This document shows, in pieces, positions 29,452-36,183 of a stretch of 50,857 nucleotides of DNA. The notes under the pieces were generated by a model. That model was given only the letters and a program-made list of their open reading frames with translations, did not search any database and was not told where the DNA came from. A program made the translations under genes and the position numbers. The stretch lies in NCBI GenBank assembly GCA_023701125.1, contig JAMPXO010000023.1:1-50857 (forward strand). Reading direction: 5' to 3'. This DNA comes from Vicinamibacteria bacterium (GTDB lineage: Bacteria; Acidobacteriota; Vicinamibacteria; Fen-336). The first letter of the stretch is position 1. Every line of letters starts with the position of its first letter.

Positions 29452-31260
29452 ATGAATTGGAAGAATGCCGCGCTGGCCGTGGCGCTCGCCGCCGCGAGCA
29501 GCGCAGCTCGGGGCGACGACCCCGTCGCCCACGAACTCGACAGGCTCACGGCGCAGGCCGCCACGCCGCGCGAAGGCGACGCGATGTGGGCCAACGTCCA
29601 GCCCGGCCTGAAGGACCTGACCGAGCGCTCGCGCCAGGCGTTCTCCGCGGGTCACCGCCGCGCCGCGCTCTACCGCCTCTCCGCGGCTCGCCAGATGTAC
29701 GCCGCGTGGCGCTACGTCGACAGCCATGCGGAGGCCCGGACCCGGGCGGCGGTGTTCGAGGCCGAGTGGAAACGCGCCGGTGACGAGCTCGCCGCCACGC
29801 GGCCGGTCGCGACCCGCGGCGACGTCTTCCTCCGCGCGCTCGCGGAAGCCGCGGCGGGAGAGGTGCGTCCGTACTACGAGGCCAGCCTCGAGTACGGCCA
29901 GGCGACGCAGCCGCAGTTCGGGCTCTACTACATCGGCTCCGCCTTCGCCGCGCGCGACACCGACGCGTTCACCGCCGGGCTGGCCGCGGCCAGCCCCGGG
30001 CCGGCGCCGGCGATCCGTTCGATCGCGGGCGAGCTGGACGCGCTGGAGGCGGAACTGCTCGCCGCCTACAAGCCGCCCGTGTCGATCGACCAGCACCCGC
30101 GCTTCATCGCCGCCAGCGGCGCGCTCAAGCAGGCCCGCGAGCTCGACGCCGCCGGCCTGCACCACGGCGCCCTGCTCCGCTACCTGGAAGCGGCCCTGCG
30201 TTCGGCCACCCTCCGCGGCAGCCCGGCGCCGCTCGACGCGCCCGCGGCCCGCGCCCGCGCCGCCGATCTGGAACCACGACTCGCCGTGGCGGACCACTCG
30301 CTGGCCCGGCTCTTCGTCGAAGTCGCGCTGTCCGACGCCGCGAACCCGGGCGCCGACGGCCGCGGGGCGCTGACCGCGGGCATCGTCTTCGCCGACCTGC
30401 TGCCGCGCTACTTCGCGGCCCTGGCCGCCGCGGCACCACGGCCGCCGGCACCCGCGGCCCAGGCCACCGTCACCCTGGTGCGTTGGCCCTACACCTGAAA
30501 CCTCTCCGATCCAGCAGGTCTGCTGGCACGCAGCGTGGCGTCGTCGTTCGAGGGCAAGGTCAAGTTCGTGGTCGAGAACTACGGGGACTCGGAGCTGGCG
30601 AAGCGCTTCGGCGTCACCCGCTATCCGGCGATCTTCGTGGACGACGTGCTAATCGCGAAGCCGAAGGACTTCGGCTTCTACGGCAAGGGCGAGGGCGGCG
30701 GCGACGGCCGCTACACGCCGTGGAAGAGTGCCGCCTCCCACGAGCGCTTCCAGGCCGACCTGCGCAGGATGATCGAGCTGACGCTGGCGGGCCGGCGCGA
30801 CGAAGCCCGGGCCCACGGCGCGGCGCCGGACGCGGCCGCACCGCAGGTCGCGCAGTTGCCCGACTTCACGCTGACCGACCTCGCGGGGCGGCCGCTGACG
30901 AAGGCCGAGCTCGCCGGGCGCGTGGTCGCCGTCGAGTTCTGGGCAACCTGGTGCCCGCCGTGCCGCGGCACGCTCGGCTGGATGGCAGAGGTGCAACGCC
31001 GCTTCGGCGATCGCCTCGCGGTGCTGGCACTGGCGATCGAGTCCGACGAAGCCGACGTGCGCAAGATGCTCGCGGAGCTGGGCCTGCCGCTGCGGGCGGC
31101 GCTGGCTCCTCCGGAGGTGGCGCGCGCGTTCGGCGACGTGACCTCGGTGCCGACGCTGCTGCTGTTCGACGAGCAGGGGCGCGCGGCGGCGGCTTACTAC
31201 GGCGCCCCGCCGGGCCTGCACGAAGAGGCCGAAGCGAAGCTGGCGGAGCTGCTGAAGTAG
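29452..31260 (+). CDS. predicted selenoprotein: exported thioredoxin-like protein with Sec349 (in-frame TGA) and a C-terminal TlpA-like domain
   Basis: Read through TGA at 30496-30498 as selenocysteine, the frame has 603 codons, 602 residues. Residues 1-20 are a signal peptide, and 21-335 an alpha-helical region of unknown family. ATVTLVRWPYT (about 338-348) is a thioredoxin first strand ending at U349, followed by NLSDPAGLLARSV, a VKFVVENYG strand and the cis-Pro loop TRYPAIFV. From about 465 a TlpA/ResA-type domain carries C501-P-P-C504 in WATWCPPCR. TGA thus takes the place of the redox-active residue, and an fdhF-like SECIS lies directly after it. Role: periplasmic thiol/selenol redox chemistry (inference). 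Without Sec insertion this would be a 348-aa protein plus a GTG-started 241-aa protein at 30535 lacking its first strand. Confidence 0.75.
30496..30526 (+). promoter_or_regulatory. bacterial SECIS element with its UGA codon
   Basis: UGA at 30496-30498 is followed by 12 nt and then CCAGCA-GGTC-TGCTGG (30511-30526), a perfect 6-bp stem with a GGUC apical loop. The inner GCAGGUCUGC is the same as the SelB-binding tip of the E. coli fdhF SECIS as I recall it. The distance from UGA to the loop is 18 nt, as in fdhF, and the loop begins with G, as bacterial SECIS models require. The bulged U of fdhF is absent. Confidence 0.75.
30535..31260 (+). other. conventional split reading of the selenoprotein 3' half (TlpA/thioredoxin part)
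   Basis: A gene caller treating TGA as stop would begin a separate 241-aa gene at GTG 30535, in the same frame as the upstream ORF and only 12 sense codons after the TGA. No Shine-Dalgarno sequence precedes this GTG; the upstream bases form the 3' arm of the SECIS stem. The product would lack the thioredoxin first strand and redox residue but keep the cis-Pro loop and the CPPC domain. Listed so the alternative is on record. Confidence 0.4.
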
Positions 31261-34200
31261 CTAACCCCGCGCCGCCGGCAGCGTGAAGCAGAAGGTCGCG
31301 CCCGTGCCGGGCGGGCCTTCGACCCAGATCCGCCCGCCGTGGGCCTCGACCGCGAGCCGGCAGAAGAGCAGTCCGAGTCCCGTGCCGCTGCGCGCGTCGC
31401 GGCCGGCGGAGAACTTCTCGAACAGTCGCGCCCGCACGTCGAGCGGCACACCGAAGCCGCTGTCCTGGACGGCGAGGCGGACGAAGCCGGGATCGGGGTC
31501 GGGCAGCGCGAACAGCCGCACGCGGCCGCCGTCGGGCGTGAACTTGATCGCGTTGCCGGCGAGGTTCTGCAGGATGCGCAACAGCAGCGTGCGGTCGGCG
31601 TCGACGGCCAGGTTCGCCGGCTCGACGTCGACCAGCAGGCGCAGCAGCTTGCGCTCGGCCAGCGGCTTCTCCAGCTCGGCGATCTCCTCGAACAGCGGGC
31701 GCAGCGTCACGGCGCTGCGCTCGACCGGCATCGCGCCGCCCTCCAGCCGGCTGACGTCGAGCAGGGTCTCGACCAGGCCGAGCAGGCGGTTGCCACCGCC
31801 GGTGGCCGCGCGCAGGATCTGGCGCTGGGCGTCGGAGAGCTGCTCGCGCGCGGTCGCCGACAGGATCTCGAGCGAGCCCATGATCGCGGTCAGCGGGTTC
31901 TTCAGGTCGTGCACGACCGTGTGGGCCAGGTCCTCGCGCAACCGCTCCAGGCGCTTGCGCTCCGAGATGTCCTCGGCGATGCCGGCGAAGCGCAGCAGCT
32001 CGCCCGACTCGCCGCGGACCGGGAACTCGCGCACGTGCACCCAGCGCGCGGGCCCGCTGGGCGGCACCACGCGGTACTCCAGTTCGTAGCCGTCCGCGGC
32101 GGCCAGCGCCGCCTCCAGCGCGGCGCGGTCGTCGGGGTGCGCCGCCGTCAGCAGCTCGCCCACGTCGGCCAGCAGGGCCGCCCGCGGCCGGCCCCACACC
32201 CGTTCGTAGGCCGGGCTCGCGTACAACACGTGGGCGCCGTCCGGCGCGCGCAGGAAGAACACGCTCTCGATGTTCTCGGCCAGCTCGCGGAAGCGCTCCT
32301 CGCTCTCCGCCAGCCGCGCCTGGGCTGCGAGCTCCTCGGTCACGTCCTGGGCGAAGCCGATCACGTAGGGGGCGCCGGAGCCGACGTTCGCCCCGGGGGC
32401 CGGCCGCGGGTCCTGGGGCGTGCGCAGCACGTTGCGGTAGCGCCAGGCGTGGATCGCGCCGCGCGCGTCGAGGATGCTGAGCAGGCCCTCCGCCTGGCCC
32501 GCCTCGCGGATCTCGCGCAGGTAGTCGTCGAAACCGCCCAGGGCGCCCGCGGGCAGGAACTCGCGCAGGTTGTGGCCCTGCATCGCGGCGGCCTCGCGGC
32601 CGAGCGAGCGGGCGGCCGCCGGGTTGACCGAGAGCAGCACGCCCTCGGGATCGTGGGTGCAGATCAGGCCCAGGCTCTGCTCGAACAGGTCGCGATAACG
32701 CTCCTCGCTCTTGGCGGCCGCCTGCTGCGCCGATGTGCGGTCGGCCAGTTCCTGGCGGGCCTGGGCGAACAGCCGCGCGTTCTCGAGCGCGATCGAGGCC
32801 AGCTCGGCGAAGCGGGCGAGCTGCTCGGCTTCCGCGGGCGAGAAGCGGCGCTGGCTCAGCGTGTCGTGGGCCAGCCCCAGCGCACCGGCAACCCGGCCTC
32901 CGAAGCGCAGCGGAACGGCGAGCAGCGCCTGCAACCGGCCCGGGGCCACCTGCGGCGAGCGGCCGGTCCAGGTGTCGTAGTCGTCGACCAGCACGGCGGT
33001 GCCGGTCACCCACACGCGACCCACGGCGCCTTCGCCCGGCTGGACGTGGAGGTCGAGCGGCTGGCGGCCCAGCGCGACGCGGCAGCGGAGGTGACTGCTG
33101 CCGGCCGCCTCCAGATAGAGGAAGCCTTCCGGGGCCCCGAGCAGGGCCGCGGCGCGAGACACCAGCGTCTCCAGCAGCGGCTCGACGTCGAGGCGGTTCA
33201 TCACCGCCAGCGCCGTCTCGTTCAGCGACGCGAGGTAGGCGCCCTGGCGCCGCAGCTCGGACTCCGCGGCCTCGCGTTCCGACAGCTCGCGCAGCGCGAT
33301 GTCGTGCAGCCGGGCGTGCTCGATCGCGATCGCGGCGTGGGCGGCGAAGGCCTCCGCGGCGCGGGCGTGGCCCTCGCGATAGAAGTCGGGCTGTCCGTGG
33401 TCGAGCACGATCACACCCGTGATCCGCTCGCCGAAGCGCAGCGGCACGCCGAGCCAGCAGCCCGGGCGGCTGCCCTCGGCGGCGGGTTCGGCCGCGGCGA
33501 TCAACGCGCTGGCGCCGCGCACGACGTCGAGGCCACGCTGGTCGCTGATCGGCGCCGAGCCGCCGGGTCCGGTGCGGGCCGCGAGCCCGCGGCCGCCGAC
33601 GATCTCCAGCCGGTCGCCGCGCAGTTGCTGGACGGAGGCCCGGTCGTACGGCACGACCGCACCCAGCTCCGCCAGGATCCGGTCGAGCACCTCCTCGAGG
33701 CCGATCGCCGAGCCGATCGCCTCGGCCGCCCCGAGCAGGCGCACCGCTTCCGCGCGCGCGGCCTCCGCCCGCTCCTTGGCCTCGGCCAGGCTCTGGGTGC
33801 GCTCCGTGACCTGCACCGCCAGGTCTCGCGCCCGGGTCCGCAGCGCGCGCAGCCGGAGCTGGTGGGTGCCGACGACGAGCGCGACCAGGGCCAGCCCCGC
33901 GAGGGCGAGGAACGCGCGGGTCTGGTAGAAGCGGGGCGGCACCGTGAGCGCGAGCGCGGCGCCGGCGTCGTTCCACGGTCCGTCACCGCTGCGCGCGCTG
34001 ACCCGGAACACGTAGTCGCCGGGCGGCAGCTTCGTGTACTCCACCAGGCGGCGGTCGCCCGGCGCGCTCCAGGCGTCGTCGAACCCCTCCAGCCGGAAGC
34101 GGAACGCGACCCGGGACGGCGCCAGCAGGGTCAGCGCGGTGAAGCGGAACTCCACGCGGCCGGGCGCGGTCGGCGTGCGCAGCGCGTCCGCGGGATGGGC

Positions 34201-36183
34201 GACGCCGTCGACGACCACCTCCTCGATCCGCACGTCGGGCGGGCGGGTGTCGCTGCGCAGCCGCGCGGGGTCGAGCACGACGACGCCCTGGGTCGTCGCG
34301 AACCACAGCCGCCCGTCCCGGTCGCGGAAGCCGGCCGGCTGGCCAGGCCCCGTGCACTGCGCGCTCTTCATGCCGTCGGTGCGGTCGAAGGTGCGCGCGC
34401 TGATCCGGCCGCGCGGGGCATCGGCCGCGGCCAGCAGCTCGGCCTTGGCGATCCGCGAGATGCCGCGGCTGGTGCCGAGCCACAGGTTGCCGGCGTTGTC
34501 GTCGCGCAACTGGGTGATGGCGTCGCTGGGCAGGCCGTCGGCGGAGCCCCGGGCGTGGAAGCGCGCGCCCTGGCGCCAGGCGACGCCGCCGTTGGTGCCC
34601 AGCCACAGCGTGCCCTCGGCGTCGACGAACAACGCCAGCACGAGGTTCGAGGGCAGCCCGTGCTCGGTCGTGAACACCTCGAAGCGCTGGCCGTCGAAGC
34701 GGACCAGTCCCGCGCCGTCGGTGCCCGCCCACAAGCGGCCTTCCGCGTCTTCGGCCAGGCCGATCACCGAGTTGGCCGGCAAACCGTCCGCGACGCGGTA
34801 GCTGCGCCAGCGGCCGTCCTCGCGCACGGAGAGGCCGTCGATCGTGGCGGCCCACACGCGGCCGCGGCGGTCGACCATCACCGCACGCACGTTGTCGTTG
34901 GCGAGCCCGTCGCGGGCGCGGAAGCCGCTGAAGCTGCCATCGGGTGCGCGGCGCCAGACGCCGGCTCCGTAGGTGCCGATCCACAGCCCGCCTGCGGCGT
35001 CCTCCGCGAGGGAGCGTACGGCCATGCCGCCCTGCCACGGCGTCGCAACCGGCTGGAAGCGCCCGCCCTCCAGCCGGTCGAGGCCGCCGGCCGAGCCGGC
35101 CCACAACGCGCCGCTGCGGTCCTGGAGCACGGTGTAGGCGAAGTCGCGCGACAGCCCCTCGCGGGTGGTGTAGGAGGTGACGCTGCCGTCGCGCAGGCGG
35201 GCGAGCCCGGCGCCGTTGGTGCCGACCCACAACGAGCCCTCGCGGTCGAGCCACAGCGAGTAGACGACGTCGGCCGGCAGCCCCTCGGTCGTCTTCGTCA
35301 CCGACAGCCGCTCACCGTCGAAGCGGGCCAGGCCGCCGCCGTTGGTGCCGACCCACAACGCGCCGTCGCCGTCCTCGACCAGCGCCGCGACGTTGGCGTC
35401 CTGCAAGGGCGCGAGCGCCGCCGGCAGCGGCACCACGCGGCCGCCCTCGAAGTGGACCAGGCCGCCGCCGGCGGTGCCCACCCACAGTCCGCCGCCGCGC
35501 CGCGCGGCCACCGCCGTCAGCAGTTGCGGCGGCAGGCCGTCGCTCGGGCCGAAGGTCTGCCAGGTGCCGTCGGGACTGCGGCGACGCAAGCCTTCGCCGA
35601 GGGTGCCGGCCCACAACGTGCCGTCGCGCTCCTGGGCCAGGGCGACCACCACGCGGCCGGCCTGCTCGGGCGGCTGCGGTTCGAAGCGACCGTCCTTGTA
35701 GCGCACCAGGCCGCCGCCGTTGGTGCCGATCCACACGGCGCCGTCGCGCAGGTCGGTGTGCAGCGCACGCACGATGTCCGAGGTCAGCCCCTGCTCGCGG
35801 GTGAAGCCCTCGAAGCGGCCGTCCTGGAGCCGGGTCAGGCCGCCGCCGTTGGTGCCGATCCACAGCCCGCCCTCGCGGTCCTCGCACAACGCGCGGATGC
35901 CGTTGTTGCGCAGCGCCGGCGTGTTGGCGCGGTTGAAGACCGTGAAACGCACGCCGTCGAAGCGGGCCAGGCCCTCGAACGTGCCCAGCCACAGGTAGCC
36001 CTCGCGGGTCTGCAGCACCGCGTTGACCGTGGCGTTGGGCAGCCCCTGGTCGAGGTTCCAGGCGTCGAGCCCGTACTGGGTCAGCGCCTTGGTCGCATCG
36101 AGCCTCGCCTGCGCCCCGGCCCAAGGCGCGGAGACGAGGGCGAGGGCCAGTGCGAGCGATGCGGCGGGGCGGCGGAGGTTCAA
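31261..36183 (-). CDS. giant membrane sensor histidine kinase with Reg_prop/Y_Y_Y sensor, two GAF and two PAS domains
   Basis: 1640 aa from TTG 36183. After a signal peptide, residues about 35-640 hold many Reg_prop repeats (WLGTFEGLARFDG, WIGTNGGGLTRLQDG and so on) forming two seven-bladed periplasmic propellers. A Y_Y_Y domain follows (VEFRFTALTLLAPSRVAFRFRL, VEYTKLPPGDYVFRV) and one TM helix near 757-779. The cytoplasmic part has two GAF domains, two PAS domains, HisKA with the phospho-acceptor His in TVVHDLKNPLTAI (about 1424), and HATPase boxes NAIKF, DSGFGVP and GTGLGLLF. There is no receiver or DNA-binding domain, and no response regulator gene is adjacent, so its partner is elsewhere. 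The ligand is probably extracellular. Confidence 0.9.
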   Translation of the reverse strand: MNLRRPAASLALALALVSAPWAGAQARLDATKALTQYGLDAWNLDQGLPNATVNAVLQTREGYLWLGTFEGLARFDGVRFTVFNRANTPALRNNGIRALCEDREGGLWIGTNGGGLTRLQDGRFEGFTREQGLTSDIVRALHTDLRDGAVWIGTNGGGLVRYKDGRFEPQPPEQAGRVVVALAQERDGTLWAGTLGEGLRRRSPDGTWQTFGPSDGLPPQLLTAVAARRGGGLWVGTAGGGLVHFEGGRVVPLPAALAPLQDANVAALVEDGDGALWVGTNGGGLARFDGERLSVTKTTEGLPADVVYSLWLDREGSLWVGTNGAGLARLRDGSVTSYTTREGLSRDFAYTVLQDRSGALWAGSAGGLDRLEGGRFQPVATPWQGGMAVRSLAEDAAGGLWIGTYGAGVWRRAPDGSFSGFRARDGLANDNVRAVMVDRRGRVWAATIDGLSVREDGRWRSYRVADGLPANSVIGLAEDAEGRLWAGTDGAGLVRFDGQRFEVFTTEHGLPSNLVLALFVDAEGTLWLGTNGGVAWRQGARFHARGSADGLPSDAITQLRDDNAGNLWLGTSRGISRIAKAELLAAADAPRGRISARTFDRTDGMKSAQCTGPGQPAGFRDRDGRLWFATTQGVVVLDPARLRSDTRPPDVRIEEVVVDGVAHPADALRTPTAPGRVEFRFTALTLLAPSRVAFRFRLEGFDDAWSAPGDRRLVEYTKLPPGDYVFRVSARSGDGPWNDAGAALALTVPPRFYQTRAFLALAGLALVALVVGTHQLRLRALRTRARDLAVQVTERTQSLAEAKERAEAARAEAVRLLGAAEAIGSAIGLEEVLDRILAELGAVVPYDRASVQQLRGDRLEIVGGRGLAARTGPGGSAPISDQRGLDVVRGASALIAAAEPAAEGSRPGCWLGVPLRFGERITGVIVLDHGQPDFYREGHARAAEAFAAHAAIAIEHARLHDIALRELSEREAAESELRRQGAYLASLNETALAVMNRLDVEPLLETLVSRAAALLGAPEGFLYLEAAGSSHLRCRVALGRQPLDLHVQPGEGAVGRVWVTGTAVLVDDYDTWTGRSPQVAPGRLQALLAVPLRFGGRVAGALGLAHDTLSQRRFSPAEAEQLARFAELASIALENARLFAQARQELADRTSAQQAAAKSEERYRDLFEQSLGLICTHDPEGVLLSVNPAAARSLGREAAAMQGHNLREFLPAGALGGFDDYLREIREAGQAEGLLSILDARGAIHAWRYRNVLRTPQDPRPAPGANVGSGAPYVIGFAQDVTEELAAQARLAESEERFRELAENIESVFFLRAPDGAHVLYASPAYERVWGRPRAALLADVGELLTAAHPDDRAALEAALAAADGYELEYRVVPPSGPARWVHVREFPVRGESGELLRFAGIAEDISERKRLERLREDLAHTVVHDLKNPLTAIMGSLEILSATAREQLSDAQRQILRAATGGGNRLLGLVETLLDVSRLEGGAMPVERSAVTLRPLFEEIAELEKPLAERKLLRLLVDVEPANLAVDADRTLLLRILQNLAGNAIKFTPDGGRVRLFALPDPDPGFVRLAVQDSGFGVPLDVRARLFEKFSAGRDARSGTGLGLLFCRLAVEAHGGRIWVEGPPGTGATFCFTLPAARG

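Follow-up and report, generated by a model that had tools for sequence, protein, structure and literature searches.

The window analysed here is a 50,857-nt stretch (contig JAMPXO010000023.1) from a Vicinamibacteria bacterium of the phylum Acidobacteriota. Between positions 29452 and 31260 it contains one reading frame that is open except for a single internal stop, a TGA at codon 349, and that closes with a terminal stop at 31258. The internal TGA is flanked by the sequences VTLVRWPYT (before) and TRYPAIFV (after). A first-pass annotation, made from the letters alone, had described a continuous frame broken only by a TGA at 30496, placed right after the thioredoxin strand VTLVRWPYT, with a downstream half devoid of a ribosome-binding site, and had inferred an exported selenoprotein hidden as two genes. 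Our reading of the frame agrees with this description: for the downstream half there is no ATG ahead of a GTG at position 30535, nor could a convincing ribosome-binding site be recognised. The features of the locus, together with a related gene from another genome, are listed in Table 1.

Table 1. Position and support of the features of the predicted selenoprotein gene and of its Cys paralogue
Feature	Position	Strand	Support
Whole predicted selenoprotein gene, 602 aa including Sec349	29452..31260	+	Single frame, single TGA; relatives with TGA at the same codon
Signal-peptide-like N-terminus (MNWKNAALAVALAAASSAARG)	29452..29514	+	Read by eye
Helical domain, 13 helices, new family	29521..30450	+	AlphaFold2 pLDDT 92.3; no Pfam match, no PDB fold match at E<=0.001
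Sec-containing thioredoxin-like domain, UxxS motif, cis-Pro392	30463..30804	+	Beta-alpha-beta order in model; weak profile matches
Sec codon UGA, residue 349	30496..30498	+	TGA in 32 genomes; TGC in the single Cys paralogue
SECIS upper stem-loop, 6 bp, loop GGUC at 30517-30520	30511..30526	+	Conserved; loop ends co-vary GGUC/AGUU
C-terminal TlpA/ResA-type thioredoxin domain	30838..31257	+	Pfam Redoxin 5e-13, AhpC-TSA 2e-11; Foldseek ResA/TlpA matches
CPPC redox motif, C501 and C504, the protein's sole cysteines	30952..30963	+	
ECF sigma + Cys version of the Sec-thioredoxin domain + helical domain	L061 / L062:8365-10428	-	

Protein and profile searches through the genus, the family, the rest of Acidobacteriota and Planctomycetota recovered homologues of the Sec-domain/TlpA part in 32 genomes, each counted once, and all 32 carry TGA at the Sec codon. 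Carriers make up 16 of the 396 Acidobacteriota genomes sampled (9 of 193 in the class); for Planctomycetota the counts were 4 of 392 genomes, and 7 of 154 in one class. In these genomes conservation of the protein extends to either side of the TGA, with the consensus VTLVRW-P/A-Y/F-T-U-x-x-S-D-P-A-G/S-L-L around it and few exceptions (alignments A1, A2 and A6). Aligning homologues for Cys, Ser or TGA at this codon had been proposed as a check, and it returned TGA in all 32 genomes and Cys in one paralogue; the gene thereby shows what is expected of a bacterial selenoprotein, a UGA in frame at a conserved redox position, together with Sec/Cys homologues. A pseudogene or a sequencing error can be ruled out, since the TGA occurs in 32 genomes with a conserved frame. 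Genome-wide reassignment of the stop codon can be ruled out as well, because TGA is the terminal stop of the homologous gene at L031, L032-L035 and L037, so that only signalled recoding fits. One locus (L058, genome G414) was reached as Planctomycetota, and its protein groups with the Acidobacteriota family f28 on the tree, a placement that may reflect lateral transfer or a mixed bin.

The helical domain accompanies the Sec protein throughout the family, as an N-terminal fusion in 23 members, as a gene directly upstream in 8, and as a C-terminal fusion in one (L060). Where it is a separate gene, its stop often overlaps the start of the Sec gene. The split lies ahead of the Sec domain, so the start codon is upstream of the TGA: in these loci the Sec gene starts roughly 110-190 nt before the TGA, with a signal-peptide-like stretch, and its frame crosses the TGA, which means that nothing sensible would be made unless the TGA is read. 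This bears directly on the alternative in which the window holds two independent genes, the first coding for a secreted helical protein terminated by the TGA and the second, further downstream, for a thioredoxin with a start of its own. In the genetic code TGA normally means stop, and the helical and Sec-thioredoxin parts are indeed separate genes in some lineages; however, the second gene of those very lineages begins ahead of the TGA, with a signal peptide, and reads through it, the protein is conserved on both sides of the TGA with the SECIS accompanying it, and the Cys paralogue (below) reads straight through. We reject the two-gene explanation on these comparative grounds and consider it extremely improbable.

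The predicted recoding signal is a stem-loop, CCAGCA-GGTC-TGCTGG, that begins 12 nt past the TGA, with its loop beginning 18 nt past it. Its resemblance to the fdhF SECIS, pointed out in the first-pass annotation, was verified by reading fdhF from E. coli MG1655: the core GCAGGTCTGC (GCAGGUCUGC) and the 18-nt UGA-to-loop distance are common to both, whereas the sequence of the outer stem differs and the protein is unrelated. This core is found once in the window. The published model of the bacterial SECIS asks for a loop of 3-9 nt, a stem of 4-16 bp, a G in the first two loop positions, a UGA spacing of 16-37 nt, an MFE <= -7.5 and an N1-N2 pair (PMC13188914), and the recommended comparison with such a model came out in favour of the stem-loop, since its 4-nt loop GGUC, 6-bp stem, 18-nt spacing and energy of -9.7 to -12.0 kcal/mol satisfy all of these criteria. 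Given the protein and local codon usage, in which CCA accounts for 1%, GCA for 3% and GGT for 6%, the five codons CCA GCA GGT CTG CTG have a joint probability of ~8e-6, and the median across the family is ~1e-5 per member. The window stem-loop exceeds chance expectation. Its fold energy is not unusual relative to shuffles (z 0.29 over 45 nt and -1.30 over 28 nt) and is uninformative, so the evidence for a SECIS consists of conservation, coupling and position; an Rfam scan of 30400-30700 yielded no SECIS family.

All 32 members have the stem-loop at this 12-nt distance from the TGA. Its loop reads GGUC in 14 and AGUU in 18, never a mixture of the two. The loop opens on the first base of a Gly or Ser codon and closes on that of a Leu codon (CUG or UUG). 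A change from Gly to Ser needs no change from CUG to UUG, and in most genes of the family Leu is seldom encoded by TTG, yet both always change together. These coupled loop ends are the pair called N1-N2 in the published model of the bacterial SECIS (PMC13188914). The AGUU-bearing L058 falls inside the GGUC clade of the protein tree, for which reason the double loop change probably happened more than once. The remaining stem pairs are mostly invariant and less informative, because the protein there is partly invariant too. Two stem positions vary: A-U is replaced by G-U at one pair, and the outermost pair is lost in three sequences.

The only Cys homologue found is a second copy in genome G790 (L061), located a few kb from the Sec copy, which has TGC at the Sec codon (RWPFLCRLSDPAS). 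In the DNA after this TGC, CCGGCCAGCATCCTGT, the stem is gone though nearly the same residues are encoded; it is to be expected that Sec and SECIS are lost together. The paralogue comprises, in order, ECF sigma regions 2 and 4 (Pfam Sigma70_r2 and r4), a hydrophobic stretch, the Cys domain and the helical domain, without a TlpA domain. It is possible, from this arrangement, that it acts as a membrane-anchored redox-sensing sigma factor. A further gene (L062:10497-12572, minus strand) separates the Sec gene from the Cys/sigma gene; in it, a Trans_reg_C DNA-binding domain is joined to PD40 propeller repeats.

The genome from which the window was taken (5.4 Mb in 254 contigs, 95% complete) encodes the machinery for selenocysteine insertion. 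We found tRNA-Sec (selC; 71.9 bits, over cut-off, with anticodon tca by ARAGORN), selB (1e-92), selA (1e-154) and selD (4e-105), and selD holds an in-frame TGA of its own at the expected N-terminal site (...VSSAG-U-ASKLGP). The second criterion for a bacterial selenoprotein, the presence of selA, selB, selC and selD in the genome, is met. In the Acidobacteriota sample, SelA was present in 16 of 16 carriers versus 250 of 396 genomes overall (hypergeometric p 5e-4, to be taken as a guide only, because related genomes are not independent). SelA had no match in the Planctomycetota MAG of L037, where the locus sits on a 4.5-kb contig; this is probably an incomplete or mixed bin. Two outcomes had been named beforehand as refuting the selenoprotein, absence of selABCD from the genome and homologues that consistently end at the TGA and are followed by a separate gene. 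Neither was encountered: all four genes are present, and conservation runs through the TGA in 32 genomes. The comparative evidence thus makes it very likely that the gene encodes one selenoprotein with Sec349, in the absence of protein or labelling data.

Among the split-type homologues, some have a clear signal peptide (MKKIIIAILTTFLISSSVFAQ in L038), and others show a Tat-like RR motif (L055, L088 and L089). The protein is probably exported, a conclusion based on signal-peptide-like N-termini that were read by eye. The helical N-terminal region foreseen by the first-pass annotation is well defined in the AlphaFold2 model (13 helices, pLDDT 92.3). The helical domain of the window protein has no match in Pfam, none over its cut-off in NCBIfam 20.0 (whole-protein scan) and, searched alone, no PDB fold match at E<=0.001. 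As its probable role we propose binding of the substrate or of a partner protein. At L066:5348-7564 the helical partner, adjoining the Sec gene, carries a fused domain of the metallo-beta-lactamase superfamily (E 7e-22), which offers a hint as to the substrate.

The UGA lies shortly after the end of the helical domain, and in eight other lineages the helical protein comes from a distinct but closely coupled gene. Both observations would suit a selenium switch, a claim added to, and compatible with, the selenoprotein explanation: at low selenium translation would stop and release the exported helical protein alone, functional in itself, while selenium would allow the full selenoprotein. There are no expression data, however, and a UGA is needed at the active site in any case, which may make its position next to the domain border incidental; we regard such a switch as unlikely.

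Within the Sec domain, the model displays the element order of a thioredoxin fold, and the invariant Y391-P392 occupies the cis-Pro place. Sequence matches are only weak (TIGR02187 and thioredoxins), and model residues 348-351 have pLDDT below 50. No peroxiredoxin/GPX match was found in the Sec domain with Pfam, and the Pfam models for rhodanese, arsenate reductase and AhpC/TSA do not match it either. In every Sec member the next domain is of the TlpA type. In the window protein it fulfils the definition of TlpA/ResA membership (a Redoxin/AhpC-TSA match with WCxxC) and contains C501 and C504, as anticipated by the proposal of a second, CPPC-bearing thioredoxin domain; a PDB fold search with the whole model gave only matches of this domain's size and kind. 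U349, C501 and C504 are the only Sec/Cys residues of the window protein. Of 29 Sec members checked, 28 have exactly two cysteines after the Sec, both in the TlpA CxxC, and the other (L060) has the CxxC plus two more. With a UxxS motif at the Sec, the usual resolving cysteine is absent.

How does this protein relate to known families? It resembles the TlpA/ResA oxidoreductases (PF08534, PF00578) in its C-terminal domain, by sequence and fold, in WCxxC and in being probably extracytoplasmic; here, however, that domain is only the third, always tethered to a Sec thioredoxin domain that Pfam does not recognise. Table 1 of a May 2026 review (PMC13188914) has rows for NF041054, a ResA-like WAxxUGC-motif protein, and for a UGC-containing TlpA family. 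These are likewise TlpA-like selenoproteins, but their Sec lies, by name, in the TlpA-type motif, whereas here that motif is Cys-Pro-Pro-Cys and the Sec is in a separate upstream domain; NF041054 matches residues 463-577 only (E 6e-8, 32 bits versus a cut-off of 300 bits). TIGR02187 (PDO_seleno_TRX, a Grx-like selenoprotein) is the sole NCBIfam model with a weak match to the window Sec domain, at E 0.014-0.023 and 14 bits versus a cut-off of 185 bits, and it has UxxC (PMC13188914) in place of UxxS. The UxxS rows among the 119 families of the review are rhodanese, arsenate reductase and a peroxiredoxin-like family (PMC13188914). No row of this table fits, as judged by row descriptions without representative sequences; no NCBIfam 20.0 family exceeds its curated cut-off for the whole protein or the Sec domain, and no Pfam model exceeds its cut-off for the Sec domain. 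The supposition that no selenoprotein of this architecture had been described therefore holds against these three resources. An earlier, unlisted report remains possible, subscription literature and preprints being outside the scope.

We propose, from comparative evidence and without experiment, that SelB with Sec-tRNA-Sec would bind the stem-loop just past UGA349, whereupon the ribosome would insert selenocysteine and continue to the stop. The mature protein would combine three domains: the helical one, one of thioredoxin fold that holds a single Sec in UxxS, and the TlpA/ResA-type CPPC domain. The Sec selenolate could then attack an oxidised extracytoplasmic substrate, a peroxide or a disulfide, with peroxide slightly favoured; the gene context indicates no substrate. 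Because the Sec domain lacks a resolving cysteine, the tethered CPPC domain may resolve the oxidised selenium, and a reductase of the DsbD/CcdA type on the membrane side would hypothetically return its disulfide to the thiol form. Such Se-S exchange between the Sec and CxxC domains is an inference, with no electron-transfer measurement behind it, and we give it about even chances.

The Sec domain might instead be mainly a sensor or a metal/metalloid-binding site rather than a turnover enzyme. The Cys paralogue of G790 is fused behind an ECF sigma factor with a hydrophobic stretch in between and has no TlpA domain, and many selenoproteins are predicted metal binders (PMC13188914); against this, a CxxC reductase domain stands beside the Sec domain in every Sec member, and only one sigma fusion was found, so that a sensing or metal-binding role seems rather doubtful. 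A wider scheme, in which an extracytoplasmic two-domain selenium relay is combined with UGA recoding that sets the amount of free helical partner and with a Cys paralogue serving as the sensor of a membrane-anchored ECF sigma factor, is speculative, and we think it quite improbable.

The predicted family would add to the ~119 listed, in soil and groundwater phyla with little-studied selenium use, and gene callers would split its gene into two fragments. Within the family Sec is nearly obligatory (32 Sec versus 1 Cys), and the helical domain constitutes a new family always linked to the Sec protein. The resolving cysteines are apparently in the adjacent domain, so that transfer from Sec to CxxC within a single chain can be tested directly.

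Besides the helical partner, no conserved neighbours were found across the loci compared; other shared neighbour clusters were dismissed as opposite-strand reading frames or genes of close relatives. In the window, the gene is followed by a convergent large hybrid sensor kinase (31261-36183, minus strand; Reg_prop, Y_Y_Y, GAF, PAS, HisKA and HATPase domains), which among the loci compared adjoins the Sec gene only within the same genus.
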